Part shown: positions 5,321 through 62,296 of the stretch, in pieces
Layout: every line of letters starts with the position of its first letter
Numbering within the stretch: position 1 is the stretch's first letter
Source of the DNA: Larkinella terrae
GTDB taxonomy: Bacteria; Bacteroidota; Bacteroidia; Cytophagales; Spirosomataceae
DNA: 64,000 nt
Assembly (NCBI RefSeq): GCF_009668025.1
Contig: NZ_WJXZ01000014.1
Span: forward strand, 1,769,097-1,833,096
Reading direction: 5' to 3'
Notes under the pieces: generated by a model
What the model was told of the DNA's origin: nothing
Database searches by the model: none
Seen by the model: the letters and a program-made list of their open reading frames with translations, nothing else
Translations under genes and position numbers: made by a program

Positions 5321-5354
5321 TTAAACCGTAAACGATAAACCATCCAACTATCTA
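5321..5354. repeat. Single-arm heptad run
   Basis: The short spacer reads as successive 7-base words (AACCGTA, AACGATA, AACCATC) starting right after the deoC stop. The same vocabulary recurs at 40331-40420. It lacks a mirrored arm and may be a decayed or nascent member of the phased palindrome family described in the findings. Confidence 0.5.
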
Positions 5355-6272
5355 ATGCTGTATCTCGGTTTTGTAAGTGCAATTCTGGCGGATCACGATC
5401 TGGAATATGTGTTGAAATTTGCGTCGGAACAACGATTTAAATGTGTGGAAGTCATGTGCTGGCCCACGGATAACGCCGATGCGCGACGGTATGCGGGGGT
5501 TTCGCACATTGATGTAGACAACCTGGATGAGAAGCACATTCAGCAATTGACGCAGCAATACGGGGTTTACATTTCCGGTTTGGGGTATTATCCCAATCCG
5601 CTCGACCCCGATCCGGTCAAGGCTGAATATTATCGGGAGCACATCAAAAAAGTCATTCGGGCGGCTGCGAAGCTGGGTATCCCGGTCGTCAACACCTTTA
5701 TTGGGCGAAATCCGGGACTCAACATCACGGAGAATTTGAAGCTATTCGCGGCTCACTGGCCCGAAATTGTGAAAGTGGCCGAGGAAAATAACGTCAAAAT
5801 CGGCATCGAAAACTGCCCGATGTGGTTTACCGACGACGAGTGGCCGGGTGGCAAAAATCTGGCAACGACGCCCGCCATCTGGGACCGGATGTTCGAGATC
5901 ATTCCGTCACCGATTCTAGGGTTGAACTACGATCCGTCGCACCTGATTTTCCAGATCATGGACGAAGTTCGGCCAATTTACGATTACAAAAACCGGTTGC
6001 ACCACATTCACTTAAAAGATGTCAAACTGTACCGGGAAAAGCTGAACCGGGTCGGAATCATGGCCAATCCGCTGGAATACCATTCACCGAAACTGCCCGG
6101 TTTGGGTGATGTGCGCTGGCGGGATTTCTTCGCGGCCCTGACCGACGTTCGCTACCGGGGTCCGGTTTGCATTGAGGTGGAGGACAAAGCCTACGAAGGC
6201 AGCGCCGAGGACGTCCAAACCGCTATTCTGACCGCCCGGAATTACCTGAGCCAGTTTCTGGTGCTTCAGTGA
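5355..6272 (+). CDS. Sugar phosphate isomerase/epimerase (xylose isomerase-like TIM barrel)
   Basis: The protein is 305 residues with the signature of AP-endonuclease family 2 TIM barrels: IGIENCPMWF in the middle, HIHLKDVK further on, and CIEVEDKAYEG near the C-terminus, which supply the usual metal-binding Glu/His/Asp residues. Such enzymes isomerise or epimerise sugars or inositol derivatives in the cytoplasm; the substrate here cannot be read from sequence. It lies 34 bp after deoC and upstream of a Gfo/Idh/MocA oxidoreductase, a pairing common in sugar or polyol catabolic clusters. The family is clear, the reaction is not. Confidence 0.88.
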   Translation: MLYLGFVSAILADHDLEYVLKFASEQRFKCVEVMCWPTDNADARRYAGVSHIDVDNLDEKHIQQLTQQYGVYISGLGYYPNPLDPDPVKAEYYREHIKKVIRAAAKLGIPVVNTFIGRNPGLNITENLKLFAAHWPEIVKVAEENNVKIGIENCPMWFTDDEWPGGKNLATTPAIWDRMFEIIPSPILGLNYDPSHLIFQIMDEVRPIYDYKNRLHHIHLKDVKLYREKLNRVGIMANPLEYHSPKLPGLGDVRWRDFFAALTDVRYRGPVCIEVEDKAYEGSAEDVQTAILTARNYLSQFLVLQ

Positions 6273-6277
6273 AATTG

Positions 6278-6361
6278 TTTCGCAGAGTTAAGCAGAGAAT
6301 ACCAGAACTAAGCGGAGAAAAACTCTGTGTAACTCTTCTTTCCTCCGCTTAACTCCGCGAA
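6278..6361. repeat. Phased 10-mer palindrome
   Basis: The left side reads in 10-base words (GCAGAGTTAA, GCAGAGAATA, CCAGAACTAA, GCGGAGAAAA) and the right side in complementary 10-base words (CTCTGTGTAA, CTCTTCTTTC, CTCCGCTTAA, CTCCGCGAAC). Together they form a long imperfect hairpin between two genes on the same strand. It starts six bases after the isomerase stop and may terminate or attenuate transcription. Confidence 0.75.
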
Positions 6362-6394
6362 CCAATCATTCCCCAACTATTCTCTGTAACTCAT

Positions 6395-7417
6395 ATGCCC
6401 AAATTTAAAGCCGCCATTATTGGTGGAGGAAGTATCGCCGGTAAAAACCACATTCCGGCGCTGAAACAACTCCCGGAGCAGGTTGAAATAGTTGCTGTTT
6501 GCAGTCGGGATGCTGGAAAAGCCCGGGCGCTGGCCGATCAGCATAGTATTCCGTTTGCATATGCGGATGCCACCGAAATGTACCGGGAATGCCGCCTGAA
6601 TATGGTGGTGATCTGCACGCCCAACAATCTGCATTATCCTTTCGCGATGCAGGCACTCGAACAGGGCTGCCACGTATTCTGCGAAAAACCACCCGCCATT
6701 CGGGCCAGTGAAGCGCGTGAAATGGCGGACCTGGCGACCCAGAAAGGCGTGGTGCTGGCCTATAACCTGCAACTCCGGCAAACCAGCGAATGGGAACTGC
6801 TGATGCGCTGTAAAGCCGAGGGGCAACTGGGTGAGATATACCACATTAAAGCCCATTTCCTGCGTCGGAGAGGCATTCCGGGCTGGGGTTATTTTACGAA
6901 TAAAGCCATGCAGGGTGGGGGAGCGCTGATCGATTTGGGCGTCCACGTGCTAGATCTGGCCTTGTGCGCGGTCGATTACGCCGTTCCCGCGAACGTCTTG
7001 GCTAATACCTACGATTTTATCGGAAAAACCGGTGGCAAAGGCTTAATGGGTTCGTGGGACCCGCAGCAGTTTGAAGTGGAAGATGCGGCAATGGCGTATT
7101 TGTCATTTCCCAATAACGCGTCGATTATGCTATCGGCTTCGTTTGCGCTGAACACCCAAACGGATGTAGATCGAAATCTGGAGGTGTTTGGCAGCAAAGG
7201 CGGGGCAAAACTGTTTCCGTTTTCCCTGTATACAAGCGTGGCCGGTGAACTGGCGGATGTCAACTTTCCCTATCTGGAAGATGTTGATATTCAGCTGAAA
7301 AACACGGCGGCTTTTGTCGATGCCTGCCTCGGAAAACCGTCGAATGTTTGTACGGCGGAGCAGGGAGCGGTTTTGCAGGCAGTGGTCGAGCGGATTTATG
7401 AATCGGCAAAGAAATAG
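6395..7417 (+). CDS. Gfo/Idh/MocA family oxidoreductase
   Basis: This is a 340-residue NAD(P)-dependent sugar or polyol dehydrogenase. An N-terminal Rossmann fold opens with IIGGGSIAGKNHI at about residues 8-20, the family EKPPA motif follows near residue 92, and the C-terminal domain holds GGGALIDLGVHVLDL with the catalytic-type Asp and His. These enzymes oxidise or rearrange glycosides and inositols in the cytoplasm. It is co-oriented with the isomerase but separated by a strong hairpin, so expression may be partly independent. The substrate is unknown. Confidence 0.9.
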   Translation: MPKFKAAIIGGGSIAGKNHIPALKQLPEQVEIVAVCSRDAGKARALADQHSIPFAYADATEMYRECRLNMVVICTPNNLHYPFAMQALEQGCHVFCEKPPAIRASEAREMADLATQKGVVLAYNLQLRQTSEWELLMRCKAEGQLGEIYHIKAHFLRRRGIPGWGYFTNKAMQGGGALIDLGVHVLDLALCAVDYAVPANVLANTYDFIGKTGGKGLMGSWDPQQFEVEDAAMAYLSFPNNASIMLSASFALNTQTDVDRNLEVFGSKGGAKLFPFSLYTSVAGELADVNFPYLEDVDIQLKNTAAFVDACLGKPSNVCTAEQGAVLQAVVERIYESAKK

Positions 7418-7437
7418 AAGTTCAGCATTTTAGGAAT

Positions 7438-7499
7438 CCCCCACCCCTCTAAAGGGGGCTTTTGTCGGCTTGCTGAAAGCCCATTTTCTGGGGTGGGGG
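7438..7499. terminator. C-rich palindrome, copy 1 (likely two-way terminator)
   Basis: An inverted repeat with arms of about 25 bp starts CCCCCACCCC, contains AAAGGGGGCTTT, and ends GGGGTGGGGG. It separates the convergent oxidoreductase and STAS genes. The same core occurs again inside the palindrome at 10308-10427, so this is a dispersed repeat as well as a probable terminator. Confidence 0.75.
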
Positions 7500-7509
7500 T
7501 AGAAAAGTT

Positions 7510-7917
7510 TTAATCGTCCGCGCTGCCGCCAAATTCGTAGCTGTCGTCGTCTTCACTGCGGAAATCATTCTCCAGTTCGTTCATGAAAACCGCATCGATG
7601 GCTTCTTCCACGGTTGGCAAAATGGTCAGGTCGGGGATTTTTGAGCTATCCAGAAAACCGATGATGGGTTCACTTTTTGTAACCAGAATCAATAGACCGG
7701 ACTCGTTGCTGCACTGCCGGTTGATTTTCCGAATGGTCGGGACGCCTTCCGCTTCAACGTTCTGAACCGCGCTAAAATCGACGATAATATTGCTGTAACC
7801 TTCCCGGAACAGGTTTCGACTCAGCGTTTCGAATGCGGCTGTTACGTCACCGCCGAATACCGGTTCATTCAGTGTAACGAGCGAATATTGCTCGTTTTTT
7901 TCAATGGCGTAATTCAT
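7510..7917 (-). CDS. STAS-domain protein with degenerate phosphorylation site
   Basis: The protein has 135 residues. Positions 1-105 fit a STAS (anti-anti-sigma) fold: beta strands, NIIVDFSAV, then a helix. In typical members the loop reads (I/M)DSSG with a phosphorylatable serine; here it reads VEAEG, so both serines are replaced (Ala, Glu). The last 25 residues are very acidic and probably disordered. It starts 28 bp after purC and is probably co-transcribed with it. The family is likely; a role in partner switching without phosphorylation is inference. Confidence 0.75.
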   Translation of the reverse strand: MNYAIEKNEQYSLVTLNEPVFGGDVTAAFETLSRNLFREGYSNIIVDFSAVQNVEAEGVPTIRKINRQCSNESGLLILVTKSEPIIGFLDSSKIPDLTILPTVEEAIDAVFMNELENDFRSEDDDSYEFGGSADD

Positions 7918-7945
7918 GATAAGGTAAACTGTTTCCGTTTCAAAA

Positions 7946-8899
7946 TTAACGAACTGCTAGTGAATGACGGATGTTTTCTTCAATCCGGTTGTAAATATTC
8001 TCCGTTTTGGAACGAACAAAGGGTTGTCCGGTTACGGTTTCGTACAATTCGATGTAACGATTTGAAATCTGGTCAATCCATTCGTCTGTCATTTCCGGAA
8101 TGGTTTGTCCTTCTTTCCCCTGGAAGTTGTTGGCAATGAGCCATTCCCGAACAAATTCTTTCGATAATTGCTTCTGTTGAAGCCCTTTCTCCTGATTTTC
8201 GACGTAGGAATTCGAATAAAAATACCGGGACGAATCGGGCGTATGAATCTCGTCGATCAGGTAAATCTTCCCGTTAAGGATTCCGAATTCATACTTCGTA
8301 TCGACCAGAATCAATCCTCGTTCGGCGGCCATTTCGGTCCCGCGATTGAACAGCGCCAGGGCGTATTTCTCCAGTTGAACATACTCATCCTCAGGCACAA
8401 TGCCCTGCTTCAGAATCTCCTCCCGCGAAATATCTTCGTCGTGGCCTTCCTGCGCTTTGGTCGATGGCGTAATGATCGGATCCGGCAGTTTGTCGGCTTC
8501 CTTCAAACCGTCGGGTAACGCAACTCCGCAGAGCGTCCGGCGTCCGGCCCGGTATTCGCGCCAGGCATGACCCGCCAGGTAACCGCGCACAACCATCTCG
8601 ACCGGATACGATTGACATTTCAGGCCGACACTCACATTCGGATCGGGAACGCCCAGCAGCCAGTTCGGAACGATGTCGGCGGTGGCTTGCAGAAAATGAG
8701 CCGCGGTCTGGTTCAAAACCTGCCCTTTGAACGGGATCGGAACGGGTAAAACCACGTCGAAAGCCGAAATCCGGTCGCTGGCGACCATCACCAGCCGGTC
8801 GTCAAAATGATAAACATCCCGGACTTTCCCCCGGTAAAAACCGGTTTGCCCGTCGAAATGAAAATGGGTTTCTTTTATGGCCTGTTTTGGGTTGCTCAT
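7946..8899 (-). CDS. purC: Phosphoribosylaminoimidazole-succinocarboxamide synthase (SAICAR synthase)
   Basis: This ATP-dependent enzyme joins CAIR and aspartate in de novo purine synthesis. The 317-residue form is the longer bacterial/eukaryote-like type. It begins with [13 protein letters not shown] and includes [25 protein letters not shown] and the late [14 protein letters not shown], which are the nucleotide and substrate motifs of the family. The start ATG at 8899 is the only sensible one. It lies downstream of the thiolase on the same strand, separated by a perfect 30-bp hairpin, and upstream of the STAS gene. Confidence 0.96.
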
Positions 8900-8924
8900 T
8901 TTCGAAAAAAAAATGAATTATAAA

Positions 8925-9001
8925 TGGTAAATGAGTAATGATAAATGTAAAAGTTGAAAACCGGGACATGCACTTTTACATTTATCATTACTCATTTACC
9001 A
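8925..9001. repeat. Perfect 30-bp inverted repeat made of heptad words
   Basis: Arms 8925-8954 and 8972-9001 are exact reverse complements with a 17-base loop. The left arm reads in 7-base words around AAATGGT, AAATGAG, TAATGAT, AAATGTA. It lies between the thiolase stop and the purC start, both on the minus strand, so it would form in the intercistronic mRNA. It has no terminal T-run. Confidence 0.92.
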
Positions 9002-9015
9002 TTTTACATTTAAAA

Positions 9016-10191
9016 TTAAATCTTTTCAATCACCAACGCTGACGCACCTCCTCCGCCGTTGCAGATGCCGACGGCCCCGATCTGCCCGTTTTGCTGCTGT
9101 AAAATGCTCGTCAGCGTCGTCACGATCCGCGCCCCGGAAGCTCCCAGCGGGTGGCCCAGCGAAACCGCTCCGCCGTAAACATTCAGTTTCTCCTGCGGTA
9201 TTTCCAGCAATTGACTGCAGGCCAGCGAAACAACGGAAAATGCCTCATTGATTTCGTAAAAATCGACCTCATCCGGTTTCACGCCCGCCCGTTTCAAAGC
9301 CGCCGGAATCGCCAAAACCGGAGCCGTAGTAAATTCGGCGGGCTCCCGTTCCGCGTCGGCGTAGCCCAGGATGCGGGCGATCGGTTTTAGCCCCAGTTCA
9401 TCGGCTTTTTTCCGACTCATGATGACCAGCGCCGAAGCGCCGTCGTTGATCGTCGAAGCGTTGGCGGCCGTCACGGTGCCGTCGGGCGAAAAAGCCGGTT
9501 TCAGTTTCGGAATCTTGTCAAAATATACATTTTTGAACTCCTCATCCTCCGTGACGGTCTGGGTACCTTTGTTGAAAGGGACGTCGACCGGAATGAGCTC
9601 GGTGCCAAATTTACCATTTTTCGTCGCATCTGCGGCCCGTTGGTACGATTGAATGGCAAAAGCATCCTGGGTTTCGCGGCTGATGTTGTATTTTTTTGCC
9701 GTCAAATCGGCAAAAACGCCCATCGGATGCCGCTCGAACGGATCGACCAACCCATCTTTGGCCAGGCCGTCGATTAGTTGTCCATCGCCGTATTTGTAAC
9801 CAAAGCGCGCTTTCGGAATATAATAAGGAGCGTTCGACATGCTTTCCATGCCTCCGGCGATGATGACATCGGCCTGACCCAATTGAATGGTTTGGGCCGC
9901 CATCATAATGGCCTTCGTTCCCGACGCACAGACTTTATTGACAGTGGTACAGCGAACGGGAATTGGCAAACCGGCCTTCAAAGCCGCCTGACGGGCCGGA
10001 GCCTGGCCGAGATTGGCCGAAACGACATTGCCCATAATCACCTCCTCAACCTGATCGGGCGAAATACCGGCTTTTTCAACGGCTCCCCGGATGGCCAGCG
10101 CGCCCAGATCAATCGCCGACAGCGGGGATAAAATTCCGCCAAAACTGCCGATGGGCGTACGAACCGCCGAGACAATGACTACTTCATTCAT
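9016..10191 (-). CDS. Acetyl-CoA acetyltransferase (thiolase)
   Basis: This 391-residue thiolase condenses two acetyl-CoA to acetoacetyl-CoA or runs the reverse cleavage. The nucleophile is Cys88 in NKVCASG. NEAF lies in the second half, [10 protein letters not shown] precedes the C-terminus, and the second catalytic Cys is in CNGGGGASA. The sequence starts [15 protein letters not shown] as in biosynthetic thiolases. No hydroxybutyryl-CoA dehydrogenase or other beta-oxidation gene is near, so the pathway is open. It is flanked on both sides by long hairpins. Confidence 0.93.
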
Positions 10192-10212
10192 GTTTAGCGC
10201 CTAACTTTTTCG

Positions 10213-10299
10213 TTTAGGGTTTATGATTTTGGGTTTATAGTTTATTGATTCAAAGTTGAACGGTTAATTAACAATAAACTTTAAACCAACAACCTTAAA
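10213..10299. repeat. Heptad-word palindrome
   Basis: Seven-base words GTTTAGG, GTTTATG, ATTTTGG, GTTTATA, GTTTATT are mirrored by AATAAAC, TTTAAAC, CAACAAC, CTTAAAG. The best-paired arms are 16 bp (10232-10247 and 10272-10287) with one mismatch. It is located just upstream of the thiolase start. Confidence 0.7.
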
Positions 10300-10307
10300 G
10301 ACTTTCA

Positions 10308-10427
10308 AAAATTCAGATTTTCCTTTTTCACTTTTGCCTCCAACCCCCTAAAGGGGGCTTTGGAATGCCGATTAAAGCCCCCTTTAGGGGGTTGGGGGCA
10401 AAAGTGGAAAAGGAAAATCTGAATTTT
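10308..10427. repeat. 54-bp-arm inverted repeat with C-rich core (copy 2)
   Basis: Arms 10308-10361 and 10374-10427 pair over 54 bp with two mismatches around a 12-base loop. The inner part repeats the C-rich core seen at 7438-7499 (CAACCCCCTAAAGGGGGCTT). It ends 20 bases from the stop of the TPR gene and lies upstream of the thiolase, so it is likely a terminator. The arms are far longer than termination needs. Confidence 0.9.
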
Positions 10428-10447
10428 AAATGGTCTCTTAGACTACA

Positions 10448-11155
10448 TTAATACGTATTGAATCGTTGCCGGTTTTTCGACGTCGCCGATTGTTTTCGCT
10501 GGTGAATATACTGGACCTCGTTGTCCTGCATGGCGTTCAGGATGGATAACGCCTGTTCTTCCGATAAATTCAGTGAGCGCAGCCGACGCAGCAATTCATC
10601 CTTATTGTCACCCTGTTCGACTTCCGTGCCTTTATCCCGTCCGCTTTCCATTGCCACTTCCGTTTCTTCCGTGCTTTGCCGGGGTTTGGGTTTGGGCCGT
10701 TGAGAACCGTTGGGATTCGGTTTTCCGGAATAGGTTTTCTTGATCAGTTCGTAATTGAATTGGGCCGGTTCGAGGGCCGGAACCGTGTTCATCGCTTTGC
10801 GAAAGTACGCCAGCGCGGAACTAGAATCGCCCTGGAGGGCCGAAATGACGCCGAGCTGAACTTCGGCAGCCGCGGCCAGTTCGGGCTGGCTGACCTGCGC
10901 GACCAGGCGGTAATGTTTCTGAGCCTGAGCATATTGCCGAAGCTGAAAATAGGAGTGCGCCAGGTTGAGCCGGGCCGACGGTTCTACGAATAAAGTGGAG
11001 TTGACCAGCGCAACGTATTGTTCAGCCGCGCGTTTGTAGTTACCGGCCTGGTAGGCGCGTAACCCTTCAATCCGCGCGATGTTATCATGCGAGATTTTAT
11101 CGAACGAACGATTGTCATACAACCAGAGCAATATCGATAAAATAAGGTAGGTCAT
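10448..11155 (-). CDS. Tetratricopeptide repeat protein, BatC-like
   Basis: The protein has 235 residues. An N-terminal hydrophobic segment (about 1-14) suggests a membrane anchor. Residues about 30-130 hold TPR helices (AYQAGNYKRAAEQYVALV, ARLNLAHSYFQLRQYAQAQ). The C-terminal third is charged and probably disordered. It follows the VWA gene by 58 bp on the same strand, the arrangement of batB-batC in Bacteroidota aerotolerance operons. The role in envelope stress tolerance is from family knowledge; nothing in the sequence proves it. Confidence 0.8.
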   Translation of the reverse strand: MTYLILSILLWLYDNRSFDKISHDNIARIEGLRAYQAGNYKRAAEQYVALVNSTLFVEPSARLNLAHSYFQLRQYAQAQKHYRLVAQVSQPELAAAAEVQLGVISALQGDSSSALAYFRKAMNTVPALEPAQFNYELIKKTYSGKPNPNGSQRPKPKPRQSTEETEVAMESGRDKGTEVEQGDNKDELLRRLRSLNLSEEQALSILNAMQDNEVQYIHQRKQSATSKNRQRFNTY

Positions 11156-11213
11156 GCTTAAAATTAAAAACGATCCGCGAAAATACGAACTCTTTCGCAG
11201 AAAGGAACGCGGT

Positions 11214-12176: not shown

Positions 12177-12311
12177 GCAAACTCCGCAGGATCAGGATAT
12201 CAACGAACCGACGACCGCCGGGTTGAATCCGTGCAGCCGCGAAATTAGGAGGAAAAGACCGGATGCCATACCGGCAGTCGTAAATTCCGCTGAAAGTTTT
12301 TGCCCGAAATC

Positions 12312-12343
12312 TTGGCGAAAAGAGTGGAATACATCTATATTTG
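12312..12343 (+). promoter_or_regulatory. Bacteroidota-type promoter of tRNA-Ser
   Basis: TATATTTG at 12336-12343 fits the TAnnTTTG -7 box exactly. TTGG at 12312-12315 stands about 20 bases upstream as a -33 box. The predicted transcript would start near 12350, some 30 bases before the tRNA. Confidence 0.65.
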
Positions 12344-12381
12344 TGACCCCAATCACCGCAAAGTGGGTTTGGGGTTCTTTC

Positions 12382-12468: not shown

Positions 12469-12471
12469 CTT

Positions 12472-12502
12472 AAAAGGATGTCGATAACGGCATCCTTTTT
12501 TT
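12472..12502 (+). terminator. Rho-independent terminator of tRNA-Ser
   Basis: AAAAGGATG and CATCCTTTT pair around a short loop and are followed by a run of seven T residues, four bases after the tRNA. Confidence 0.85.
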
Positions 12503-12702: not shown

Positions 12703-12719
12703 AGTTGCTAAGATTTAAG

Positions 12720-15804
<3,085 letters not shown>

Positions 15805-37390: not shown

Positions 37391-37415
37391 CGAAAAGAAT
37401 AGTGAACATTTACTA

Positions 37416-37504
37416 ATGAACAATGAACAATGAATAATTAACGGGGAAGTTCCGATTTACTGCAATCGGGTAATAATTCATTGTTCATTTTTAATTGTTC
37501 ATTT
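37416..37504. repeat. Heptad-word palindrome
   Basis: Words AATGAAC, AATGAAC, AATGAAT, AATTAAC (37416-37443) are mirrored by ATTCATT, GTTCATT, TTTAATT, GTTCATT (37477-37504). The right arm runs into the upstream glycosyltransferase gene and supplies its last codons (KMNN) and stop. Confidence 0.88.
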
Positions 37505-38474
37505 TCCTCGGTACGTCGACGGTTTCGATGAATTTGACGGTTTGGTGAAGTTTCTCGACGGTTTTTTTGCGCCAGCCCCGCAGGGGCGGTTTAAAAGCTT
37601 GCTTACCATAAGCCGGTATAAAGGCGCTTAGTGAACTGGAGAGGTCTTTCCGGTCGAAATAATGTACCCGGTTTTGGTAGGCTAGCAGGCGTTTTTTGAT
37701 GGCCGGATAAGCCGAAATCCGGACCCGGTTTTGCGCCTGGAAATACCCTTCCTGATCGATTATGCCTTTGTAATTCAGGAAAATAACGGGCGCGTTTTCG
37801 ATGCTGGCCCGTTCGTGCAAATTCCACAGGCCGAGGTGCCAGGCGGGATTTTTGACAATCACCACACCATCGAATAAGCCTGGCGTCAGCACCAGCCAGA
37901 TCTGATCGGTGTACATGCCTTCGCAGGGGCAGGCAAACGCGCGCTCCGGCACCCGGCTGCTCCACCAGTCCAGAAACCGGGCCGCTTCGGCAGTGCGTTT
38001 GAGCGCGAGAAAACCGGAGCTGTACAAGCCCACATTCTGCAGGAATTTTTCGTCCGGAAAAGCCGTGTCCGTCACCGGCTTCAGCAGGTGTGGCGTCAGC
38101 AAAAGTGTCGCGTTGGCATACTGGCTCGGCAAATCCGCCAGGGGCTGGTACAAATAAACCGACGGATCGAGGTAGATCACCCAATCGGTTTGCGAACGGT
38201 GGCGGTAAATGTGCTTGATAAACAGCGGTTTGCAGGCAGCGACAAATTCGGCTGGCGTGTACTGCTGCGAAAGCTGGTCCAGATCCGGAATCGTTAATTC
38301 ATTGATCGAAACCAGCGGAAATGGAATCTGAAAACCGGTCGGAAGGTTGAGCAAATCGTCGCAAAGCCCGACGATAAACGCATCTTTCGGATGGTGCTGC
38401 TGCAAACTTTCGCCCAGGGCGAGCGCCTGCGGCAGTTGACGAATGGTACAAACGGTTAAAAATGTAATCATCAT
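37491..38474 (-). CDS. GT8-like glycosyltransferase with altered DxD
   Basis: The protein has 327 residues of the same family as the gene at 40428-41411: opening FLTVCTIRQLPQALALGESL, a mid-region WVIYLDPSVYLYQPL, and NLHERASIENAPVIFLNYKG near the end. At the metal-binding position it has DPS where the paralogue has DPD, so the second Asp is lost. The last four codons and stop come from the heptad palindrome. It may be catalytically altered or use another acidic residue. It starts four bases after the end of the GT2 gene. Confidence 0.8.
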   Translation of the reverse strand: MMITFLTVCTIRQLPQALALGESLQQHHPKDAFIVGLCDDLLNLPTGFQIPFPLVSINELTIPDLDQLSQQYTPAEFVAACKPLFIKHIYRHRSQTDWVIYLDPSVYLYQPLADLPSQYANATLLLTPHLLKPVTDTAFPDEKFLQNVGLYSSGFLALKRTAEAARFLDWWSSRVPERAFACPCEGMYTDQIWLVLTPGLFDGVVIVKNPAWHLGLWNLHERASIENAPVIFLNYKGIIDQEGYFQAQNRVRISAYPAIKKRLLAYQNRVHYFDRKDLSSSLSAFIPAYGKQAFKPPLRGWRKKTVEKLHQTVKFIETVDVPRKMNN

Positions 38475-44361: not shown

Positions 44362-44471
44362 TTAATTTTGAATGAGTGAATGAGCGATTGAGTGAATAAC
44401 CTGACGGGAGCCATTTTTTGCGGAGCTATTCACTCATTCGCTCATTCACTCATTCACTCATTCAAAATTAA
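44362..44471. repeat. Octad-word palindrome overlapping the WbqC stop
   Basis: Left words GAATGAGT, GAATGAGC, GATTGAGT are mirrored by ACTCATTC, GCTCATTC, ACTCATTC, ACTCATTC; the right arm has one extra octad. Outer ends TTAATTTT and AAAATTAA complete the match, and the latter contains the WbqC stop codon (44468-44470). Confidence 0.9.
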
Positions 44472-47231: not shown

Positions 47232-47306
47232 AATGATGAATGATGGACGATGAATGATGAAGCAAGAGTTATTTAATTTATCATTCATCGTCCATCATTC
47301 ATCATT
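47232..47306. repeat. Perfect 27-bp heptad-word palindrome
   Basis: Arms 47232-47258 and 47280-47306 are exact reverse complements, built of AATGATG, AATGATG, GACGATG, AATGATG. The last base is the first base of the aminotransferase stop codon on the minus strand. The loop is 21 bases. Confidence 0.93.
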
Positions 47307-50585: not shown

Positions 50586-50609
50586 AAACTTTCTCTAGTA
50601 TTTACGTTT

Positions 50610-50687
50610 AATTAATAATTAACAATGAATAATGAACGGGAAGCGTAAGCTTGTCTATTGTTCATTATTCATTGCTAATTGTTCATT
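50610..50687. repeat. Heptad-word palindrome
   Basis: AATTAAT, AATTAAC, AATGAAT, AATGAAC (50610-50637) are mirrored by GTTCATT, ATTCATT, GCTAATT, GTTCATT (50660-50687). The best pairing is 19 bp with one mismatch. It starts four bases beyond the stop of the Wzz-like gene and lies before the permease gene. Confidence 0.88.
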
Positions 50688-50690
50688 AAT

Positions 50691-54706: not shown

Positions 54707-56599
54707 ATGGCAGATAGTAATGACGTTCAATACACGGAGGACAGCATCCGTTCGCTCGACTGGCGGGAGCACATCCGCCTGCGCCCCGGAATGTATATCG
54801 GAAAACTGGGCGATGGATCGGCGGCTGATGATGGCATCTATGTATTGATCAAGGAAGTAGTAGACAACTGTATTGATGAACACGTGATGGGCAACGGGAA
54901 GCTCATCGATATTAAAGTGTCCGACCACCGCGTGGAAGTGCGCGACTACGGCCGGGGCATTCCCCTCGGAAAAGTGGTCGATGTAGTTTCCAAAATCAAC
55001 ACTGGCGGTAAGTATGATTCGGGTGCGTTTCAGAAATCCGTCGGTCTGAATGGTGTCGGTACGAAAGCCGTCAACGCCTTGTCCACGCTGTTTCGGGTTC
55101 AGTCTTTCCGGGAAGGAAAAACCGTCTGGGCCGAATTTGAGCGGGGAATTCTGATCCGTCAGGGTGAAGATACCACCAATCAGCGCAACGGGACCCTCGT
55201 GGTTTTCGAACCGGATAATACGGTTTTCAAGAATTTCCACTTCATTCCGCAGTTTCTGGAGAATATGATCTGGAATTACTGCTACCTCAATGCAGGTCTA
55301 ACCATTAATTTCAACGGCCAGAAGTTTGTCTCCCAAAACGGTCTGCTCGATCTGCTGCGGAACAAAACCGACGAAGAAGCGCTGCGGTACCCCATTATTC
55401 ACCTTAAGGGTCCGGATATTGAAATTGCGCTGACCCACGGCAACCAGTACGGCGAAGAATATTATTCCTTTGTCAATGGTCAGTACACCACGCAGGGCGG
55501 TACTCACCTGGCAGCTCTGCGCGAAGCCTTTGTGAAAACCATTCGCGAATATTTCAAGAAGGAGTACGACGCTTCGGATATTCGGGCGTCGATTATTGCC
55601 GCCATCAGCATCCGGGTTCAGGAACCGGTTTTTGAATCCCAGACCAAAACCAAGCTGGGGTCGATCAATATGGCTCCCGATTCCAACAGCACGACGGTTC
55701 GCTCGTTTGTGATTGACTTTGTCAAAAACCAGTTGGACGACTTCCTGCACATGAACACCGAAACCCGGGAAGCCCTCAAGAAGCGGATTGAACAATCGGA
55801 ACGGGAACGGAAGGAACTGGCCGGGATTAAAAAGCTGGCGAACGAACGGGCAAAAAAAGCCAATCTTCATAATAAAAAGCTGCGCGATTGCCGGGCGCAC
55901 CTGCCCGACCTCAAATCCGACGACCGCTACAGCACGACCCTGTTCATTACGGAAGGCGACTCGGCCAGCGGTTCGATCACCAAGTCCCGGAATGTGCAAA
56001 ACCAGGCGGTTTTCAGTCTGCGCGGAAAACCGCTGAACTGTTTCGGTCTGACCAAGAAAGTCGTGTACGAAAACGAAGAGTTCAATTTGCTGCAACATGC
56101 CCTCGATATTGAAGACGGTCTGGAGGGCCTTCGGTATAACCGCATCGTGGTAGCAACCGACGCCGATGTCGACGGCATGCACATCCGGCTGTTGCTGATG
56201 ACTTTTTTTCTGCAATTTTTTCCGGATTTGGTCCGAAATGGGCACCTTTACATCCTCGAAACCCCGCTGTTCCGTGTCCGCAATCCGAAAAACCACAAGG
56301 AAACGACGTATTGTTACTCGGAAGAGGAAAAACAGCAGGCTACGAATAAATTTCTCAAGAGCGGTAAAAAAGTAGAAATAACGCGCTTTAAAGGATTGGG
56401 CGAGATTTCACCGGATGAGTTCGGTTTGTTCATTGGCGATAACATGCGACTGGAGCCGGTCATCATGGAGAAAGAAACCTCCGTTCCGAAATTGCTCAGT
56501 TATTACATGGGAAAAAATACGCCCGACCGCCAGCGTTTTATCATCGACAACCTCCGCATCGAAAAAGACATGGAGGAAGTCGCATTGGTTCTGGATTAA
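54707..56599 (+). CDS. parE: DNA topoisomerase IV subunit B (type IIA)
   Basis: The protein has 630 residues. The ATPase domain has [28 protein letters not shown] and the glycine loop [13 protein letters not shown]. The Toprim domain has [19 protein letters not shown] and [20 protein letters not shown] with catalytic Asp residues. The C-terminus has [13 protein letters not shown]. Length and the opening [15 protein letters not shown] fit Bacteroidota ParE better than GyrB. The usual parC partner is not downstream; pheA follows instead after a palindrome. It is divergent from the exporter gene. Confidence 0.92.
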
Positions 56600-56600
56600 G

Positions 56601-56686
56601 AATGAATAATTAACAATGAACAATGAACAATGAATAGTGAAAGCATCGGTCCTTCATTATTCATTGCTCATTGTTCATTATTCATT
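56601..56686. repeat. Heptad-word palindrome between parE and pheA
   Basis: AATGAAT, AATTAAC, AATGAAC, AATGAAC, AATGAAT, AGTGAAA (56601-56642) are mirrored by CTTCATT, ATTCATT, GCTCATT, GTTCATT, ATTCATT (56652-56686). It begins one base after the parE stop codon and ends five bases before the pheA start. It has the longest word run in the window. Confidence 0.92.
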
Positions 56687-56691
56687 AAAGT

Positions 56692-57768
56692 ATGACCCTC
56701 GAATCCCTCCGTACCCAAATCGATTCCATCGACAATCAGATGCTGACTTTGCTGAACCAACGCATGGAAGTGGTGCGGCAAGTTGGCGAATTAAAGAAAT
56801 CCAGTAAATCGGTCATTTACCGGCCCGAGCGCGAAAAGCAGATTCTGGATCGGTTGCACGAACTCAATAGCGGTTTGATGACACCGGCCGCCATCGATGC
56901 GATTTACCTGGAAATTTTTGCGGTTTCCCGCAATCTGGAAATGCCGGAACGCGTGGCGTATCTGGGGCCGGAAGGTAGTTTTACCCACCAGGCTGCCGAA
57001 AGCCGGTTTGGGGCCATGAGCGACTACATTGCGTTGCCCAACATTCGCTCGGTTTTCGAAAGTGTGGAAACCGGTCGGTCGCGGTTTGGCGTCGTGCCGA
57101 TTGAAAACAATCAGGAGGGCGTTGTCAATGAGACAATTGACCTGCTTTACGAGAAAGACCTGCTCATTGCGGCCGAAGCCCAGATTCCGGTTCATTTCAC
57201 GTTTGCCACCCAAACGGATGTGTTGAGCGAGATTACGCACATTTATTCCAAAGACATTGCTTTTGGGCAGTGCAGCAAGTTTTTACGGGATTATTTCGAC
57301 GGTTTGTCCGCGGAACTGGTGCCGGTTGAATCCACTTCGAAAGCGGCAAAAATGGCGGCACAACAACCCAAGTCGGCGGCCATTTGCTCCAATATTGCCT
57401 CTAAATTATTCGGCGTCCCGGTTTTATTCGATAACATCGAAGACACCGACCTGAACCGGACCCGGTTTTTGGTTCTGGCCAAAGATTTCGAAAATCAGAA
57501 AAGCGGTCAGGACAAAACCACTATTGTTGCCCGGCTGCCAGACACGAACAAACCGGGCGTACTGGCGCAGTTTCTGCAGGAGTTCGACGCCCGAAACATC
57601 AACTTGACCAAAATCGAAAGTCGACCTCTCCGCGATGGGGCGACTTTCCGATACTGGTTTCTTATCGAATTTGAAGGCCACGCCAACGATCCCGGCGTTC
57701 AGGAAATCCTGCAACACCATGCTGCCGACGTCAAATGGCTGGGAAGTTACGTAAGGTCGCTGGGGTGA
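56692..57768 (+). CDS. pheA: Bifunctional chorismate mutase / prephenate dehydratase
   Basis: A 358-residue enzyme of phenylalanine synthesis. Residues 1-85 form the AroQ chorismate mutase (LRTQIDSIDNQMLTLLNQRM, YRPEREKQIL). Residues about 92-270 form prephenate dehydratase (VAYLGPEGSFTHQAAESRFG, VVPIENNQEGVVNETIDLL, and DLNRTRFLVLA with the catalytic Thr-Arg-Phe). An ACT domain follows (GVLAQFLQEFDARNINLTKI, ESRPL), giving feedback control by phenylalanine. The order of domains and length are normal. Confidence 0.96.
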   Translation: MTLESLRTQIDSIDNQMLTLLNQRMEVVRQVGELKKSSKSVIYRPEREKQILDRLHELNSGLMTPAAIDAIYLEIFAVSRNLEMPERVAYLGPEGSFTHQAAESRFGAMSDYIALPNIRSVFESVETGRSRFGVVPIENNQEGVVNETIDLLYEKDLLIAAEAQIPVHFTFATQTDVLSEITHIYSKDIAFGQCSKFLRDYFDGLSAELVPVESTSKAAKMAAQQPKSAAICSNIASKLFGVPVLFDNIEDTDLNRTRFLVLAKDFENQKSGQDKTTIVARLPDTNKPGVLAQFLQEFDARNINLTKIESRPLRDGATFRYWFLIEFEGHANDPGVQEILQHHAADVKWLGSYVRSLG

Positions 57769-57774
57769 TTTTAT

Positions 57775-57866
57775 GAAAAGAATGATGAATCATGGATGAT
57801 GAGCGATGAATTAAGACCATTCAATTTTAATTCATCGTCCATCATCCATAATTCATCATTCTTTTC
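57775..57866. repeat. 40-bp-arm heptad palindrome between convergent genes
   Basis: Arms 57775-57814 and 57827-57866 pair over 40 bp with three mismatches around a 12-base loop. The words are AATGATG, AATCATG, GATGATG, AGCGATG, AATTAAG. The right arm contains the first two bases of the ribF stop codon. It separates pheA and ribF. Confidence 0.92.
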
Positions 57867-58809
57867 ACATCTTCAGGATTTCCCGGCACCGTTCGACATC
57901 CAGTTGCATCTGATCGACCAGGGTCGCCAGCCCTTCAAACTTCAGTTCCGGGCGGAGGTATTCGATAAACCGCACCGTCAGATGTTCGCCGTAGATTTCC
58001 TGGTTGAAGTCAAAAATATAAACTTCGATGGTCCGGTGTGTACCGCCCACGGTTGGCCGCGTGCCGATGCTCATGGCGCCCCCCAGTTTCTGCCCCTTGT
58101 AAATGACTTCCGTGGCATAAATACCGTTGGAAGGAACGAGTTTAACCGGATCATCGACCTGAATGTTGGCAGTCGGAAAACCGATGGTTCGGCCCAGTTG
58201 CTGACCTTTCACGATGGTCCCACTTAGGCTGTAGGGGCGACCCAGAAATTTGGTAGCGGTTTTTAAGTCACCCTCCAGCAAGGCCGTCCGGATTTTGGAC
58301 GAACTTACTCCGACGTCTTCCACATCCTGACGCGGAATTTCTTCAATCTCAAAACCGTATTCGTGCGCGTGCTGCTGCAAATAGTCGAAACTGCCTTCCC
58401 GGTTTCGGCCAAAATGATGATCGTAGCCAATGACAAGTTTTTTGGTGCCGATTTTATCGACCAGAATTTGCTGAATAAATTCTGCCGACGACAGTTCCGA
58501 AAACGATCGGGTGAATGGGATCACCACCAGGTTGTCGACGCCCGCAGCGGCCAGTAACTCAGTTTTTTCCTCCAGCGTCGAGAGCAGTTTCAGATCCTGA
58601 CTGTCGTTGGAAACCACCGTACGTGGGTGTGGCCAGAACGTGAGCACCACGGTTTCTCCGCCCGCATTTGAAGCGTCACCCCGGCGGGCGATTTCGGTCA
58701 GCCGGGTTAAAATTTTCTGGTGACCCAGGTGAACTCCGTCGAACGTGCCGCTGGTAACAACGGCGTAGGGAATGGATTGAAACGTATCGGTTCCGTGGTA
58801 AATCTTCAT
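57865..58809 (-). CDS. ribF: Bifunctional riboflavin kinase / FAD synthetase
   Basis: A 314-residue enzyme that makes FMN and FAD. The N-terminal nucleotidyltransferase domain has VTSGTFDGVHLGHQKIL and LVIGYDHHFGRNREGS, with ISSSKIR-type motif as VSSSKIRTALLEGD. The C-terminal flavokinase domain has GRTIGFPTANIQ, NGIYATEV and VYIFDFNQEIYG. The start ATG at 58809 overlaps the truB stop by four bases, so it is co-transcribed with truB and uppP. Confidence 0.96.
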   Translation of the reverse strand: MKIYHGTDTFQSIPYAVVTSGTFDGVHLGHQKILTRLTEIARRGDASNAGGETVVLTFWPHPRTVVSNDSQDLKLLSTLEEKTELLAAAGVDNLVVIPFTRSFSELSSAEFIQQILVDKIGTKKLVIGYDHHFGRNREGSFDYLQQHAHEYGFEIEEIPRQDVEDVGVSSSKIRTALLEGDLKTATKFLGRPYSLSGTIVKGQQLGRTIGFPTANIQVDDPVKLVPSNGIYATEVIYKGQKLGGAMSIGTRPTVGGTHRTIEVYIFDFNQEIYGEHLTVRFIEYLRPELKFEGLATLVDQMQLDVERCREILKM

Positions 58810-59516
58810 GAATGTAATGGCTCAACAGGGCGGTTTTTGCTGATAAACCCGTCGATCGTTTCGGCATCTTCGATTCGAAAATCGCCAATGCGGGTTCGGC
58901 GAAGAGTTTTTAGGTAAGCCCCATTTTGCAACAATAGCCCTAAATCGCGCACTAAACTACGGATGTATGTTCCTTTTGAGCAAACAATCCGGAAATCAAT
59001 TTCAGGAAATCGTTCTGAATGGACCTCAAAGGTAGAAACCGTAATGGTACGCGATTTAATTCCCCCCTCCACTTTATCGGCGGTTTCGCCCCGGCGCGCT
59101 TTTTCATAAAGCCGCTCACCATTGACCCGAACGGCGGAGTAAATGGGCGGAATCTGGTCGATGACGCCGGTGAGTTGGGCTACCGCAGCCTGAATGGCGT
59201 CGGGCGTAATGGCGGAAATATCATATTCCGCATCGAATTCGGTTTCCAGATCGACCGAAGGCGTGGTTTTTCCGAGCACCAGTGTGCCGGTGTATTCTTT
59301 TTCCTGAGCCTGGTAACTGTCAATTTGCTTGGTCATTTTACCCGTGCAGAGAATCAGCAAACCCGTCGCCAGCGGATCGAGCGTTCCGGCATGACCGATT
59401 TTCTTGAACTTGCAGGCAAATTTGAGCTTTTTGACAACGTCGAACGACGTCCAGGTAAGCGGTTTATCAATGAGGATCAGTTGTCCCTCTTCCATGACTT
59501 TGATCACCGTAATCAT
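58806..59516 (-). CDS. truB: tRNA pseudouridine-55 synthase
   Basis: A 236-residue enzyme that modifies U55 in the T loop of tRNA. LILIDKPLTWTSFDVVKKL leads to the catalytic Asp in KIGHAGTLDPLATGLLI. YTGTLVLGKTTPSVD, PIYSAVRVNGERLYEKAR and SKGTYIRSLVRDLG are further family motifs. A second ATG at 59495 is also possible. The gene starts four bases after uppP and overlaps ribF. Confidence 0.96.
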   Translation of the reverse strand: MITVIKVMEEGQLILIDKPLTWTSFDVVKKLKFACKFKKIGHAGTLDPLATGLLILCTGKMTKQIDSYQAQEKEYTGTLVLGKTTPSVDLETEFDAEYDISAITPDAIQAAVAQLTGVIDQIPPIYSAVRVNGERLYEKARRGETADKVEGGIKSRTITVSTFEVHSERFPEIDFRIVCSKGTYIRSLVRDLGLLLQNGAYLKTLRRTRIGDFRIEDAETIDGFISKNRPVEPLHS

Positions 59517-59520
59517 AGTC

Positions 59521-60300
59521 TCAGACGATGTCCAGTTTCACGCCAGCCGCGATCAAACCCAGCAGCAGCAATCCGAGGGCTATGCGGTAATAGCCGAACA
59601 GTTTAAAACCGTATTTGGTCAGAAATCCGACGAAACTCCGGATGGCCAGCAAGCCGACGATGAACGCGATGAGGTTGCCCAGCAGCAGAATCTGGATGTC
59701 GTCGGATTGGATGGTTTTGTACGTTTTCAGCAGTTTGTAACCCGTAGCGGCCGCCATCGTGGGAACGGCGAGAAAAAACGAAAATTCAGCGGCCTGTTTG
59801 CGTGTAAGTCCTTGAGTCATACCGCCAATGATGGTTGCGGCTGACCGGGAAACGCCCGGAATCATGGCAATGCACTGAAAAAAACCAATTTTTAGCGCTT
59901 CAGGGAAGGTGACGTCGTAATCGCGGGGAATTTCCTTGAATGTCCGATCGATGTAAATCAGCAGAATACCGCCCAGCAGCAACGTAACGGCCACAACGGT
60001 TACGTTTTCCAGCAGCGAATCGATGAAATCATTCAGCAAAAAACCGATAACGGCGGCTGGCAGGAAGGCGACAAATAGCTTGAAATAGAAGTCGGTGGTT
60101 TGGAGAAACCGGCGCCGATAGAGCACCAGAACCGAAATAATACAGCCAAACTGAATATTTACAGTATAGAGTTTAGTAAACTCCGATTTACTAATTCCGA
60201 CCAGTGACGAATAGATAATCATGTGACCCGTCGACGAAACCGGCAAAAACTCAGTCAATCCTTCAATAATGGCAAGGATGATCGCGTGGAGAAAACTCAT
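59521..60300 (-). CDS. uppP: Undecaprenyl-diphosphatase
   Basis: A 259-residue inner membrane enzyme that recycles undecaprenyl diphosphate for cell wall and glycan synthesis. It has the BacA-type motifs [16 protein letters not shown] near the start and [15 protein letters not shown] in the middle. About eight membrane helices. The start overlaps the DUF3098 gene by four bases. By recycling the lipid carrier it also serves the large glycan cluster upstream. Confidence 0.95.
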
Positions 60301-60500
60301 TGATTCGTTGGTCGGCGCAAAATGGCAAAAAATTCAAGAACAAAACCGCCGATGACAATGAGCGGGCCAACGGTAAGCCCCAGCGCACCGAAGCCAAATT
60401 CTTCCGTATCGAGGCTCATCACAATGAAGCCAAGCAGAATGACGACTACGCCAATGGTCATCAGGGTATAGTTGGCGCGTCCGAAGGGTAATTTATTCAT
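60297..60500 (-). CDS. DUF3098 family small membrane protein
   Basis: A 67-residue protein with two membrane helices ([18 protein letters not shown] and [20 protein letters not shown]). A small membrane protein of this kind (DUF3098) commonly lies between ftsX and uppP in Bacteroidota, as here. Function unknown. It overlaps uppP by four bases and may act with the cell division or lipid recycling proteins beside it. Confidence 0.88.
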
Positions 60501-60578
60501 CTACTTTGTGAATGGTTGAGTGGTTAAAACAGGGTTGAAACAGGAAACGAGTGCGTGGCCGTTGGCCCTTTCAACCGA

Positions 60579-61457
60579 TTAATATAAGTCATCCAGTGAC
60601 AATCGTAAATACCGGTGTACGGCCTGAAACGTACTGATCAGTCCAATAATTATACCGAGAATGACGACCCCACCCAATAAATAAACAATTTTTTCGGGCT
60701 CCTGCAAGGCCGCCAGACCGTCGATATTGCGCAGGGCGAGCTGCAGCAAAATCATCAGGAGCGTTGCGGCAATCAAACCGCTCAGCAATCCCTGAATCAT
60801 CCCGCGACGCAGAAAAGGCAGTTGAATAAAACCGTTTGTTGCCCCGACCAGTTGCATACTCCGGATGAGCAGCCGCTGCGAATAGAGTGCCAGGCGGATG
60901 GTATTGTTCATTAAAACGATGATAATCACCAGCATGATGACGGCAAAAACCGACATGATGATGTAAATCTTGGTGATGTTTTTATTGATTTCGTCGACGA
61001 TATTTTCCTGATAAATGACTTCAAAAACGCCGTTGACGCTTTCCAGATCGGCTTTAACTTCCTGCAGACGGGCTTCCTGAAAATAATCTTCCTGTAACTT
61101 GATGCGGTAGCTGTCGCGGAGCGGATTTTCGTTCAGGAAATTGGAAAAATTCTCTTTGGTGTCAGCCATGAACTCCTTGGCAGCCACGTCTTTGCTGACA
61201 AAAGTAACCTGCGGAGTGGTGCCGTTGTAAAGCACGTACGGTTTTTTAGTGATTTCTGCTTGCAGTTTCCCGAGTTTGCCCGAATCCAGATCCTTGTCCA
61301 GAAAGACCCGAACTTCATTGTTTTCGCGAATGTACCGCACTAACTTTTTAGATTGGAGCACCAGCATTCCGCAAAATCCGATTAAAAACAAAGCCGAAGT
61401 CAGGCTGAAAAGAATCATCCCGCTCGGATAGGCACCCACTCTCTTTTTTGAAGCCAT
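60579..61457 (-). CDS. ftsX: Cell division protein FtsX (permease-like)
   Basis: The protein has 292 residues from the ATG at 61457 (MASKKRVGAYPSGMILFSLT); a longer frame adds 13 residues without support. There are four membrane helices: one at about 20-38, then a large periplasmic domain (about 45-160) with VNGVFEVIYQENIVDEINKN, and three C-terminal helices of the FtsX/MacB type (LYSQRLLIRSMQLVGATNGF). With FtsE, encoded elsewhere, it controls cell wall hydrolases at division. A promoter box is visible upstream. Confidence 0.93.
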   Translation of the reverse strand: MASKKRVGAYPSGMILFSLTSALFLIGFCGMLVLQSKKLVRYIRENNEVRVFLDKDLDSGKLGKLQAEITKKPYVLYNGTTPQVTFVSKDVAAKEFMADTKENFSNFLNENPLRDSYRIKLQEDYFQEARLQEVKADLESVNGVFEVIYQENIVDEINKNITKIYIIMSVFAVIMLVIIIVLMNNTIRLALYSQRLLIRSMQLVGATNGFIQLPFLRRGMIQGLLSGLIAATLLMILLQLALRNIDGLAALQEPEKIVYLLGGVVILGIIIGLISTFQAVHRYLRLSLDDLY

Positions 61458-61505
61458 ATAAAACTTGGGTTGGGTCGTGTTAGCTTCCCATTGCAACGTC
61501 GGTTA

Positions 61506-61513
61506 CAAAAATA
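61506..61513 (-). promoter_or_regulatory. Promoter -7 box of the ftsX operon
   Basis: On the minus strand TATTTTTG matches TAnnTTTG, about 50 bases before the ftsX ATG. GTTGG upstream at 17-18 bases is a weak -33 box. It would drive ftsX, DUF3098, uppP, truB and ribF. Confidence 0.55.
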
Positions 61514-61824
61514 CGGATTTTGCCCGAACACCAACCCTTTCCACTTGGTCGGTGCGGGAGATTTAGGAAAAATTAAGAGTTTGGCCGTAAATAAGTGGTT
61601 TTTACGGGGTATCGAGTCTGATAATTTCAGCCATCGATACGCAGGAACCGGAACGAACGAAGCGGTTCAATAAAAAACAAAACCGCAACCGCAGGTCTGT
61701 TCAAAATGGCCGGGCTTCTTTTTACGGATCTGACCAGGAGTTTCAAACAATCCTACCGGAAGCGGTTTGTAAGTTGACAATTATTCCAAGCGGTTTTGTA
61801 GAATAATCTCAACCTTATTGAAGT
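61514..61824. other. Spacer without recognised genes
   Basis: About 310 bases between the ftsX promoter and the DUF779 gene. It holds several AAGCGGTT words (near 61658, 61760 and 61789) and a run of AAAACCGC words, but no convincing coding frame, terminator or RNA gene. Confidence 0.5.
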
Positions 61825-62208
61825 TTAGATCTCAATCGGCCCCAAGTGAATGGGCGTCAGGTGATCGAGTTCTTCCAGCTCAAACAAGCGGGAGCGGATC
61901 AGAAAGCGCACGCCCAGCGGAATTTCCAGGGAAAAACTTGCACCCCGTCCGGGCGTTACATCAATGGTCAACTGCGTGTGCTTCCAGTACTCAAACTGAT
62001 CTTCGGACATAAAAAAGTCGCAGCCGTGAATCTGTCCCAACCAGACGTCGGAGGAGCCAACAATGAAGTCGCCTTTGGCAAAACACATCGGCGACGATCC
62101 ATCGCAGCAGCCTCCGCTCTGGTGGAACATCAATTCGCCGTTTTCTCTTTTGAGTTTGTCGATGATGATGACGGCGGCACCAGTAACCTCAACGCGAGAG
62201 ATAATCAT
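61825..62208 (-). CDS. DUF779 family protein
   Basis: The protein has 127 residues from the ATG at 62208 (MIISRVEVTGAAVIIIDKLK). It has a cysteine-rich metal-type site (HQSGGCCDGSSPMCFAKGDF) and a beta-rich C-terminal half. DUF779 proteins are regularly encoded beside acetaldehyde-type dehydrogenases, as here, which suggests a helper or sensor role. It follows the dehydrogenase gene on the same strand after an octad palindrome. Confidence 0.9.
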   Translation of the reverse strand: MIISRVEVTGAAVIIIDKLKRENGELMFHQSGGCCDGSSPMCFAKGDFIVGSSDVWLGQIHGCDFFMSEDQFEYWKHTQLTIDVTPGRGASFSLEIPLGVRFLIRSRLFELEELDHLTPIHLGPIEI

Positions 62209-62214
62209 TTCAAT

Positions 62215-62296
62215 TGCGATTGTGTGATTGAGCGAATGAGTGATTACCAGTGAACGCCATAAATCACTCAATCACTCATTTGCTCAATCACAATTG
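62215..62296. repeat. Octad-word palindrome between aldehyde dehydrogenase and DUF779 genes
   Basis: TGATTGAG, CGAATGAG, TGATTACC on the left are mirrored by AATCACTC, AATCACTC, ATTTGCTC on the right, with the right side one word longer. The outer ends CAATTG match. It begins within two bases of the dehydrogenase stop. Confidence 0.85.

Follow-up and report, generated by a model that had tools for sequence, protein, structure and literature searches.

A 64,000-nucleotide (nt) stretch of Larkinella terrae DNA (contig NZ_WJXZ01000014.1, hereafter the window) carries, in its intergenic spacers, palindromes whose arms are made of short tandem words in phase. We propose that these palindromes belong to a set of dispersed gene-end hairpins that are probably rewritten in place by replication template switching. 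Their arms, of about 20-45 nt, consist of tandem 7-, 8-, 9- or 10-bp words and lie mostly directly 3' of stop codons. Comparison of the sequences of sister species shows that the two arms often change together and that some loops are inverted where they stand. It also shows junctions at which the words are entirely different from one species to another, with position and period kept. The kept period under changing words and the lineage-specific dominant words are the surprising parts of the result.

Nine genomes of the genus (G000 to G008) were compared, among them the window's own genome, G000 (7.85 Mb). By parE, the closest named relative was Larkinella sp. C7 (96% identity, L051). Palindromes were surveyed in 12 segments from six Larkinella genomes (2.02 Mb) as gapless inverted repeats with a score of at least 16 and a loop of at most 70. 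They were called phased when the periodicity of the arms exceeded that of shuffles (p below 0.02), a threshold that about five palindromes are expected to pass by chance. The genes are simple open reading frame (ORF) calls made here, so single junctions may be mis-typed. An earlier, sequence-only reading of the window had proposed a scan for an excess over shuffled spacers. Such an excess was found: the survey gave 241 palindromes, 107 of them phased, while three rounds of shuffling over all 12 segments (36 segment shuffles) gave one. Mostly non-coding were 232 of the 241, and 105 of the 107 phased ones. The lag was 7 in 79 of the phased palindromes, 8 in 11, 9 in 4, 10 in 12 and 13 in one; none fell at 5, 6, 11 or 12. 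Several word families coexist in one genome, both of 7 bp (AATGAAC, AATGATG, AAATGTA, TTAAGAG and GGGCATG) and longer (TGAATGAG and AATGGTT, 8 bp; GATTACGCT, 9 bp; GCGGAGTTAA, 10 bp).

The phased palindromes are closely tied to gene ends. It can be seen that 79 lie in tandem and 28 in convergent spacers and none in a divergent one, as compared with 951 tandem, 244 convergent and 239 divergent junctions overall (n = 1434). The median distance from the stop codon is 3 nt, 96 of the 107 lie within 15 nt, and the purine-rich arm comes first in 93. In tandem spacers with a slack of more than 40 nt, 23 of 25 palindromes are closer to the stop than to the next start (medians 3 vs 117 nt). The unphased palindromes are placed more loosely: 59% of 121 lie within 15 nt of a stop, and 13 of 134 fall in divergent spacers. 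From position and fold, the hairpins may form mRNA 3' ends in both directions, serving stability or processing, and be tolerated or retained in that role and not as U-tract terminators; such a role would explain both the adjacency to stop codons and the absence from divergent, promoter-bearing spacers. Provision of stop codons in all three frames was considered as a purpose. Stops in all three frames were present in 48 of 107 five-prime arms (21% of shuffled arms) and in 9 of 107 three-prime arms, which is suggestive, but the idea was not adopted because periods of 5 and 11 were never seen and one of 9 was.

The most informative comparison came from the close trio G002, G005 and G008, whose orthologous proteins are 97-98% identical (median). 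The most-changed species pair was taken at each of 20 trio junctions with alignable phased palindromes (570 columns). Paired double changes numbered 34 against 5.9 expected under independence, an excess to be taken as an upper reading since the inverted-repeat search that delimits the arms favours paired states; slightly different rules applied to 18 junctions gave 33 against 6.0. Rather than diverging independently of each other, the arms thus change together, though 34 one-sided breaks occur too. Loops of at least 9 nt could be aligned at 16 junctions (28 of 134 pairs). The loop was inverted in at least one species pair at 8 of these 16 junctions, six of them within the trio, and was direct throughout at the other 8. 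As a control, loops of different junctions were paired, and 7 of 3,298 such pairs scored as alignable, direct or inverted. The loops found inverted measure 13-28 nt and stand between arms of the AAATGTA, TTAAGAG, TTTACGG and AATGGTT types. At the thiolase/purC junction, the compared 33-nt arms are identical between G002 and G005, whose 17-nt loops run in opposite orientations and differ at two places; the same palindrome also shows a mirrored arm change between sister species. At parE/pheA, the loop of G008 is inverted relative to those of G002 and G005. At two junctions G005 is without the hairpin tip, either lost or never gained, and parts of the outer arms remain. The double changes and loop inversions favour the earlier suggestion that arms are kept alike by local copying, and copying is preferred over selection for pairing alone because template switching is recognised by just this combination of inverted loops and mirrored changes. 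The copying step itself would be a replication template switch at the hairpin, in which the new strand may fold back or switch to the other strand and copy one arm and the loop from the complementary arm. Slippage by whole words would keep neighbouring words alike, and a mutant word might take over the array, in register, on both arms.

A second line of evidence concerns the words. The synteny set was enlarged by three regions picked for AATGAAC palindromes in G000, a choice that biases word and period in G000 only. At parE/pheA, the words are AATGAAC in G000, of the TTAAGAG type in G002, G005 and G008, and CAGTTTT-like (by eye) in Spirosoma terrae. One junction in an added region carries AATGAAC in G000 and G006, AATGATG in G004, G005 and G008, AAATGTA-type words in G002 and TTAAGAG-type words in G001. 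Phased palindromes occurred in at least two species at 34 junctions, and a single period was found throughout at 31 of them, an agreement partly expected because same-word pairs are included; 2,000 within-genome permutations averaged 15.4 such junctions and never exceeded 23. With the arm-identity threshold set at 0.72, words differed in 31 pairs, spread over 12 junctions, and every pair agreed in period. Four of the 12 junctions (62/63, 132/133 and 137/138 of the first set and 25/26 of the second) were removed after the arms had been read, as these showed one family in another length or register. In the remainder, with truly different words, the period was the same in every pair (27 of 27) and at every junction (8 of 8), against a permuted mean of 2.7 junctions, and none of 5,000 permutations reaches 8. 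With related words, period 10 is common to G000, G002 and G008 at the 6278 junction. Of the three mixed-period junctions, one is 7/8 and two are of the AATGGTT type, whose lags of 8, 9 and 10 are hard to separate. Similar loops across a word change were sought among the junctions and one clear case was found (AATGAAC in G000 vs TTAAGAG type in G008, loop similar and inverted); it is not decisive because the loop carries a recurring core. That core, CTGACGC, lies at the centre of 20 of the 107 phased palindromes, in several word families, against 0.35 expected.

As a separate observation, the GGCTGACGCA core recurs in the loops of differently worded palindromes, for example in L051 near 9940, and could be a binding or nucleation site.

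Several observations weigh against rewriting by template switching, in addition to the upper-reading character of the double-change excess. Among the 81 changed columns, there were 34 one-sided pair-breaking changes, 12 G-U states and one unpaired double change; since one-sided and G-U changes occur, copying is not instant and there is room for selection on pairing. As many as 106 of the 134 loop pairs could not be aligned. Of the inversions that were accepted, the two weakest have scores of 0.39, and in two or three the loop contains the recurring CTGACGC core. Own-arm matching exceeded the permutation maximum in three other word families, but hardly so for AATGAAC in G000 (21.3, vs 19.2 for other loci and a permutation maximum of 21.0; the own arm is best at 5 of 20) and not for the 6 period-8 loci (25.4 vs a maximum of 25.5). 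With regard to the period, the permutations ignore shared descent, and for about 12 separate word changes the chance is about 0.005 by our own arithmetic from period frequencies. Period 7 makes up 94 of the 127 palindromes in the synteny sets, and a period other than 7 was found at just one of the 8 different-word junctions (8, at 44362).

One alternative is that nothing but selection on a hairpin, as RNA or as cruciform, keeps the arms paired, with the double changes arising as compensatory mutations through G-U or unpaired intermediates. The G-U and one-sided states just mentioned are what such intermediates would look like, and the strong RNA folds and the position 3' of stop codons agree with it. 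Selection for pairing cannot, however, invert a loop, and it has to face entire word sets that differ on both arms between related species; we regard it as quite unlikely to be the sole cause. Unlikely too, if with somewhat more in its favour, is that these are mobile palindromic elements, like repetitive extragenic palindromes (REPs) or miniature inverted-repeat transposable elements (MITEs), repeatedly inserted behind stops by a transposase, so that differing words are independent insertions. The word families do number tens to hundreds of matches per genome with several-fold changes within the genus. Close species also differ in presence and absence: counting unphased palindromes too, trio junction pairs carried one in both members in 40 cases, in one only in 20 and in neither in 183 (other genome pairs: 87, 122 and 373). 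Independent insertion does not readily account for the common period of all 27 different-word pairs, nor for the one loop that is similar across a word change. REP-associated tyrosine transposase (RAYT) genes were looked for as the agents. Y1_Tnp gave 28 matches, 1-7 per genome, and in the 20 regions inspected, from eight of the nine genus genomes (none from G003), no RAYT flanked by the same palindrome was seen; the nearby hairpins were mostly of other, REP-like types, some regions had none, and one had TTTACGG-like words upstream.

Apart from this, L241-L260 holds several RAYT-like Y1 transposase genes amid REP-like hairpins of other types, GTCGCGTTAGCGAC and CATCCCTACGGGA among them, which make up a second realm of palindromes in Larkinella.

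AT-rich intrinsic terminators of transcription would be expected next to stop codons and in convergent spacers, and some junctions with phased palindromes have ordinary GC hairpins in related species. The arms are, however, only 32% G+C (median), and a T-run at the base (6 T in 7, one strand) accompanies just 18 of the 107 phased palindromes on either strand and 19 of the 134 unphased ones, so that T-runs are rare, not absent as had been thought; the combination of a GC-rich stem with a U-run did not characterise the 107 phased palindromes. The hairpins also begin about 3 nt past the stop, whereas bacterial inverted repeats peak 50-80 bp downstream of it in one survey, as far as its available text goes (PMC13155455). 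Termination is therefore an improbable explanation. Invertible DNA is well known in Bacteroidota, and a site-specific recombinase acting on the arms would by itself yield loop inversion. Flips occur, however, within arms of several word families, and loops of 13-28 nt are too short for a normal synaptic loop, which makes a recombinase highly improbable. Template switching thus stands as the preferred reading of the arm and loop changes.

The dominant words are specific to lineages. Matches were counted per genome on both strands with up to 3 mismatches, and loci are fewer than matches because overlapping matches were counted separately. AATGAAC has 479 matches in G000 (248+231, against 1+0 for a reversed control), 311 in G006 and 5-43 in the other seven genus genomes. 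Words had previously been taken to be private to each locus; they form families instead. TTAAGAG has 391-473 matches in the trio (the count in G008 comes with a raised control, 98), 290 in G001, 226 in G004, 161 in G003, 96 in G000, 95 in G006 and one in G007, and AAATGTA has 146-163 in the trio, 57 in G000, 13 in G006 and 0-4 elsewhere. Either a word has spread across loci or one word has been selected for. A further possibility, which we hold to be distinctly doubtful, is that the period is inherited by the junction and the word is not, and that something acting in trans as template or reader, be it a word-binding factor or copying from locus to locus, converts same-period arrays genome-wide to each lineage's dominant words, in register and on both arms. 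If true, short words would be evolving in concert throughout the genome, with no enzyme known to bring this about. A reverse transcriptase was considered as the writer of the words; RVT_1 is found in 3 of the 9 genus genomes, and since G000 has no RVT_1 match, such a writer is unlikely.

G007 is nearly without the three tested words (5, 1 and 2 matches) and may serve as a natural negative for tracing the responsible factor. In stretch L037 (G000 C6:320001-340000) and those following it, three AATGAAC-type palindromes lie about 2.7 kb apart, as if behind tandem gene copies, the first two being identical. In a wider sample, phased palindromes were present at 8 of 80 named loci around parE, one of the 8 being Larkinella. 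Of 150 family genomes, 12 had more than 100 AATGAAC matches against no more than 1 in the control, and one of these 12 (G093) lists AATGAAG tandems. TTAAGAG matched in 90 of 198 phylum genomes, mostly a few times and not above control. In another genus of the same family (G020, G075, G085 and G093), head-to-tail AATGAAG/AATGTAG arrays were seen at listed places as plain tandem relatives.

Parts of this picture are already known, namely mirrored heptamers near stops in Xanthomonas (PMC4692102) and template switching at hairpins (PMC8794818); the comparisons below refer to the available parts of the papers cited. Rehm et al. 2015 described heptamer repeats, GGGAATC / GGGGA(C/T)T, in Xanthomonas and Nostoc and read them as G-quadruplexes. 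In the two Xanthomonas genomes they counted 70 and 75 pairs of mirrored heptamers, so that such heptamers, contrary to what had been supposed, are already described; most repeats were transcribed, and repeat neighbourhoods were more stable (PMC4692102). Those arrays resemble ours in their tandem 7-bp words at many, mostly intergenic loci (here 79 of 107 at lag 7) and in lying nearer the upstream ORF and more scarcely between divergent ORFs (here none of 107 divergent, median 3 nt). In contrast, they have one G-rich word type, whereas Larkinella has AT-rich words in several families with periods of 7-10. Arm co-evolution, loop inversion and a locus-kept period, shown here for Larkinella, are not mentioned for them in the text available. 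GGG is lacking in words such as AATGAAC, TTAAGAG and AAATGTA and present in the minor GGGCATG type; judged by the 32% median G+C and the letters of the words, with no quadruplex scan run, the arms do not have the G-tracts for G-quadruplexes. If the present reading is right, it is improbable that mirrored heptamer arrays such as those of Xanthomonas and Nostoc owe their existence in general to a G-quadruplex, because AT-rich words do the same.

Template-switch mutations have been reported to create and maintain RNA hairpins in rRNA and microRNA, and mirrored multi-base changes and loop inversions mark copying between stem halves there as well; a figure legend presents two cases of loop inversion in bacterial rRNA (PMC8794818). 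Both signs, double changes above independence and loop inversion between genomes, were found here. The difference is that the Larkinella hairpins are intergenic, form a family spread over the whole genome and are built of phased words that turn over. Small inversions in plastids also flip hairpin loops between related species, mostly in spacers, and were ascribed to flip-flop at the stem, the stem-loops being ascribed to mRNA stability; these concern organelle genomes and a 9-bp stem, and tandem words are not mentioned in the accessible text (PMC6824564). REPs, tagged with GTAG or CGTC, are likewise dispersed extragenic palindromes in many copies, and CGTC-type REPs were reported in Bacteroidetes among other phyla; the complement of CTGACGC contains CGTC. 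The REP hairpin, however, is short and carries its unpaired tag at one end, whereas in Larkinella the core lies at the centre and the arms are of phased words (PMC3733652). The TAACTGA repeats of Beggiatoaceae (MacGregor, PMC4679880) are intergenic heptamer arrays, patchy across phyla and found as direct repeats also in some Cyanobacteria and Bacteroidetes. They are direct (with one inverted case) and mostly just 5' of start codons, those of Larkinella being mirrored. In the literature consulted, in part and largely without subscription journals, we met no account of the Larkinella word-palindrome family in Cytophagales, and none of such arrays with co-evolving arms, flipping loops or a period kept by the locus.

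If template switching is the right reading, a large set of gene-end structures is shaped mainly by DNA copying: arms, loops and words vary between congeneric species, some with 97-98% protein identity, and position and period are common to them. These junctions would then offer a natural many-locus system for measuring bacterial template switching at hairpins, with loop orientation as the marker. They would also be a warning that paired double changes, usually taken as proof of a selected RNA, may arise by copying.

In the window itself, phased words had been noted in twelve spacers, and this held with some qualification (Table 1). An inverted repeat with the period given earlier was found in 11 of the 12; the exception, 5321, has a few degenerate words in a short tandem only and no hairpin (fold energy -0.1 kcal/mol, z 0.29). 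Gapless inverted repeats scoring at least 16 were present at 9 of the 12 (6278, 8925, 37416, 44362, 47232, 50610, 56601, 57775 and 62215). Those at 10213 (28-nt arms, 82%) and 40331 (18-nt arms, 83%, loop 58 nt) are weaker. The periods, 7 at most loci, 8 at 44362 and 62215 and 10 at 6278, were borne out (shuffle p < 0.01 at ten inverted-repeat loci), with 10213 marginal (p 0.047). On RNA folding, 10 of the 12 spacers beat all 200 dinucleotide shuffles (z -3.9 to -13.1), 40331 beat 198 of 200, and 5321 was no better than its shuffles. An Rfam scan of the window gave three tRNAs alone at gathering score, and thus no match for the palindromes at that score.

Table 1. Phased-word features of the window (positions counted from its first letter).
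Feature	Positions	Strand	Remarks
Short degenerate TAAACCG-like tandem, unmirrored	5321..5354	+	
10-bp-word palindrome, GCAGAGTTAA type	6274..6366	+	immediately 3' of the stop of ORF 5355-6272
7-bp-word palindrome, AAATGTA type	8922..9004	.	thiolase/purC junction; 17-nt loop between 33-nt arms of 100% complementarity
Weak 7-bp-word inverted repeat, GGTTTA type	10220..10299	.	
7-bp-word palindrome, AATGAAC type	37396..37508	.	
Decayed 7-bp-word inverted repeat, CGGTTTA type, long loop	40331..40424	.	
8-bp-word palindrome, TGAATGAG type	44362..44471	.	G005 and G008 likewise have period 8, the word in G008 being a different one
7-bp-word palindrome, AATGATG type	47232..47306	.	AAATGTA-type words at the junction in G002, G005 and G008
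7-bp-word palindrome, AATGAAC type	50608..50689	.	
7-bp-word palindrome, AATGAAC type	56601..56686	+	parE/pheA spacer
7-bp-word palindrome, AATGATG type	57774..57867	.	convergent spacer 3' of pheA; loop inverted, G005 vs G008
8-bp-word palindrome, TGATTGAG type	62211..62296	.	period 8 in G000, G004, G005 and G008

Two other repeats of the window may be mentioned. At 10294-10441 there is a palindrome with 68-nt arms (CCCCCTAAAGGGGG type) whose outer arms are unphased yet mirrored, as if the flank had been copied across; the same junction in G002, G005 and G008 is just a 24-bp spacer. At 3342-3563, a 71-bp tandem repeat of about 3 copies also contains inverted repeats (CTGACAGGG type).

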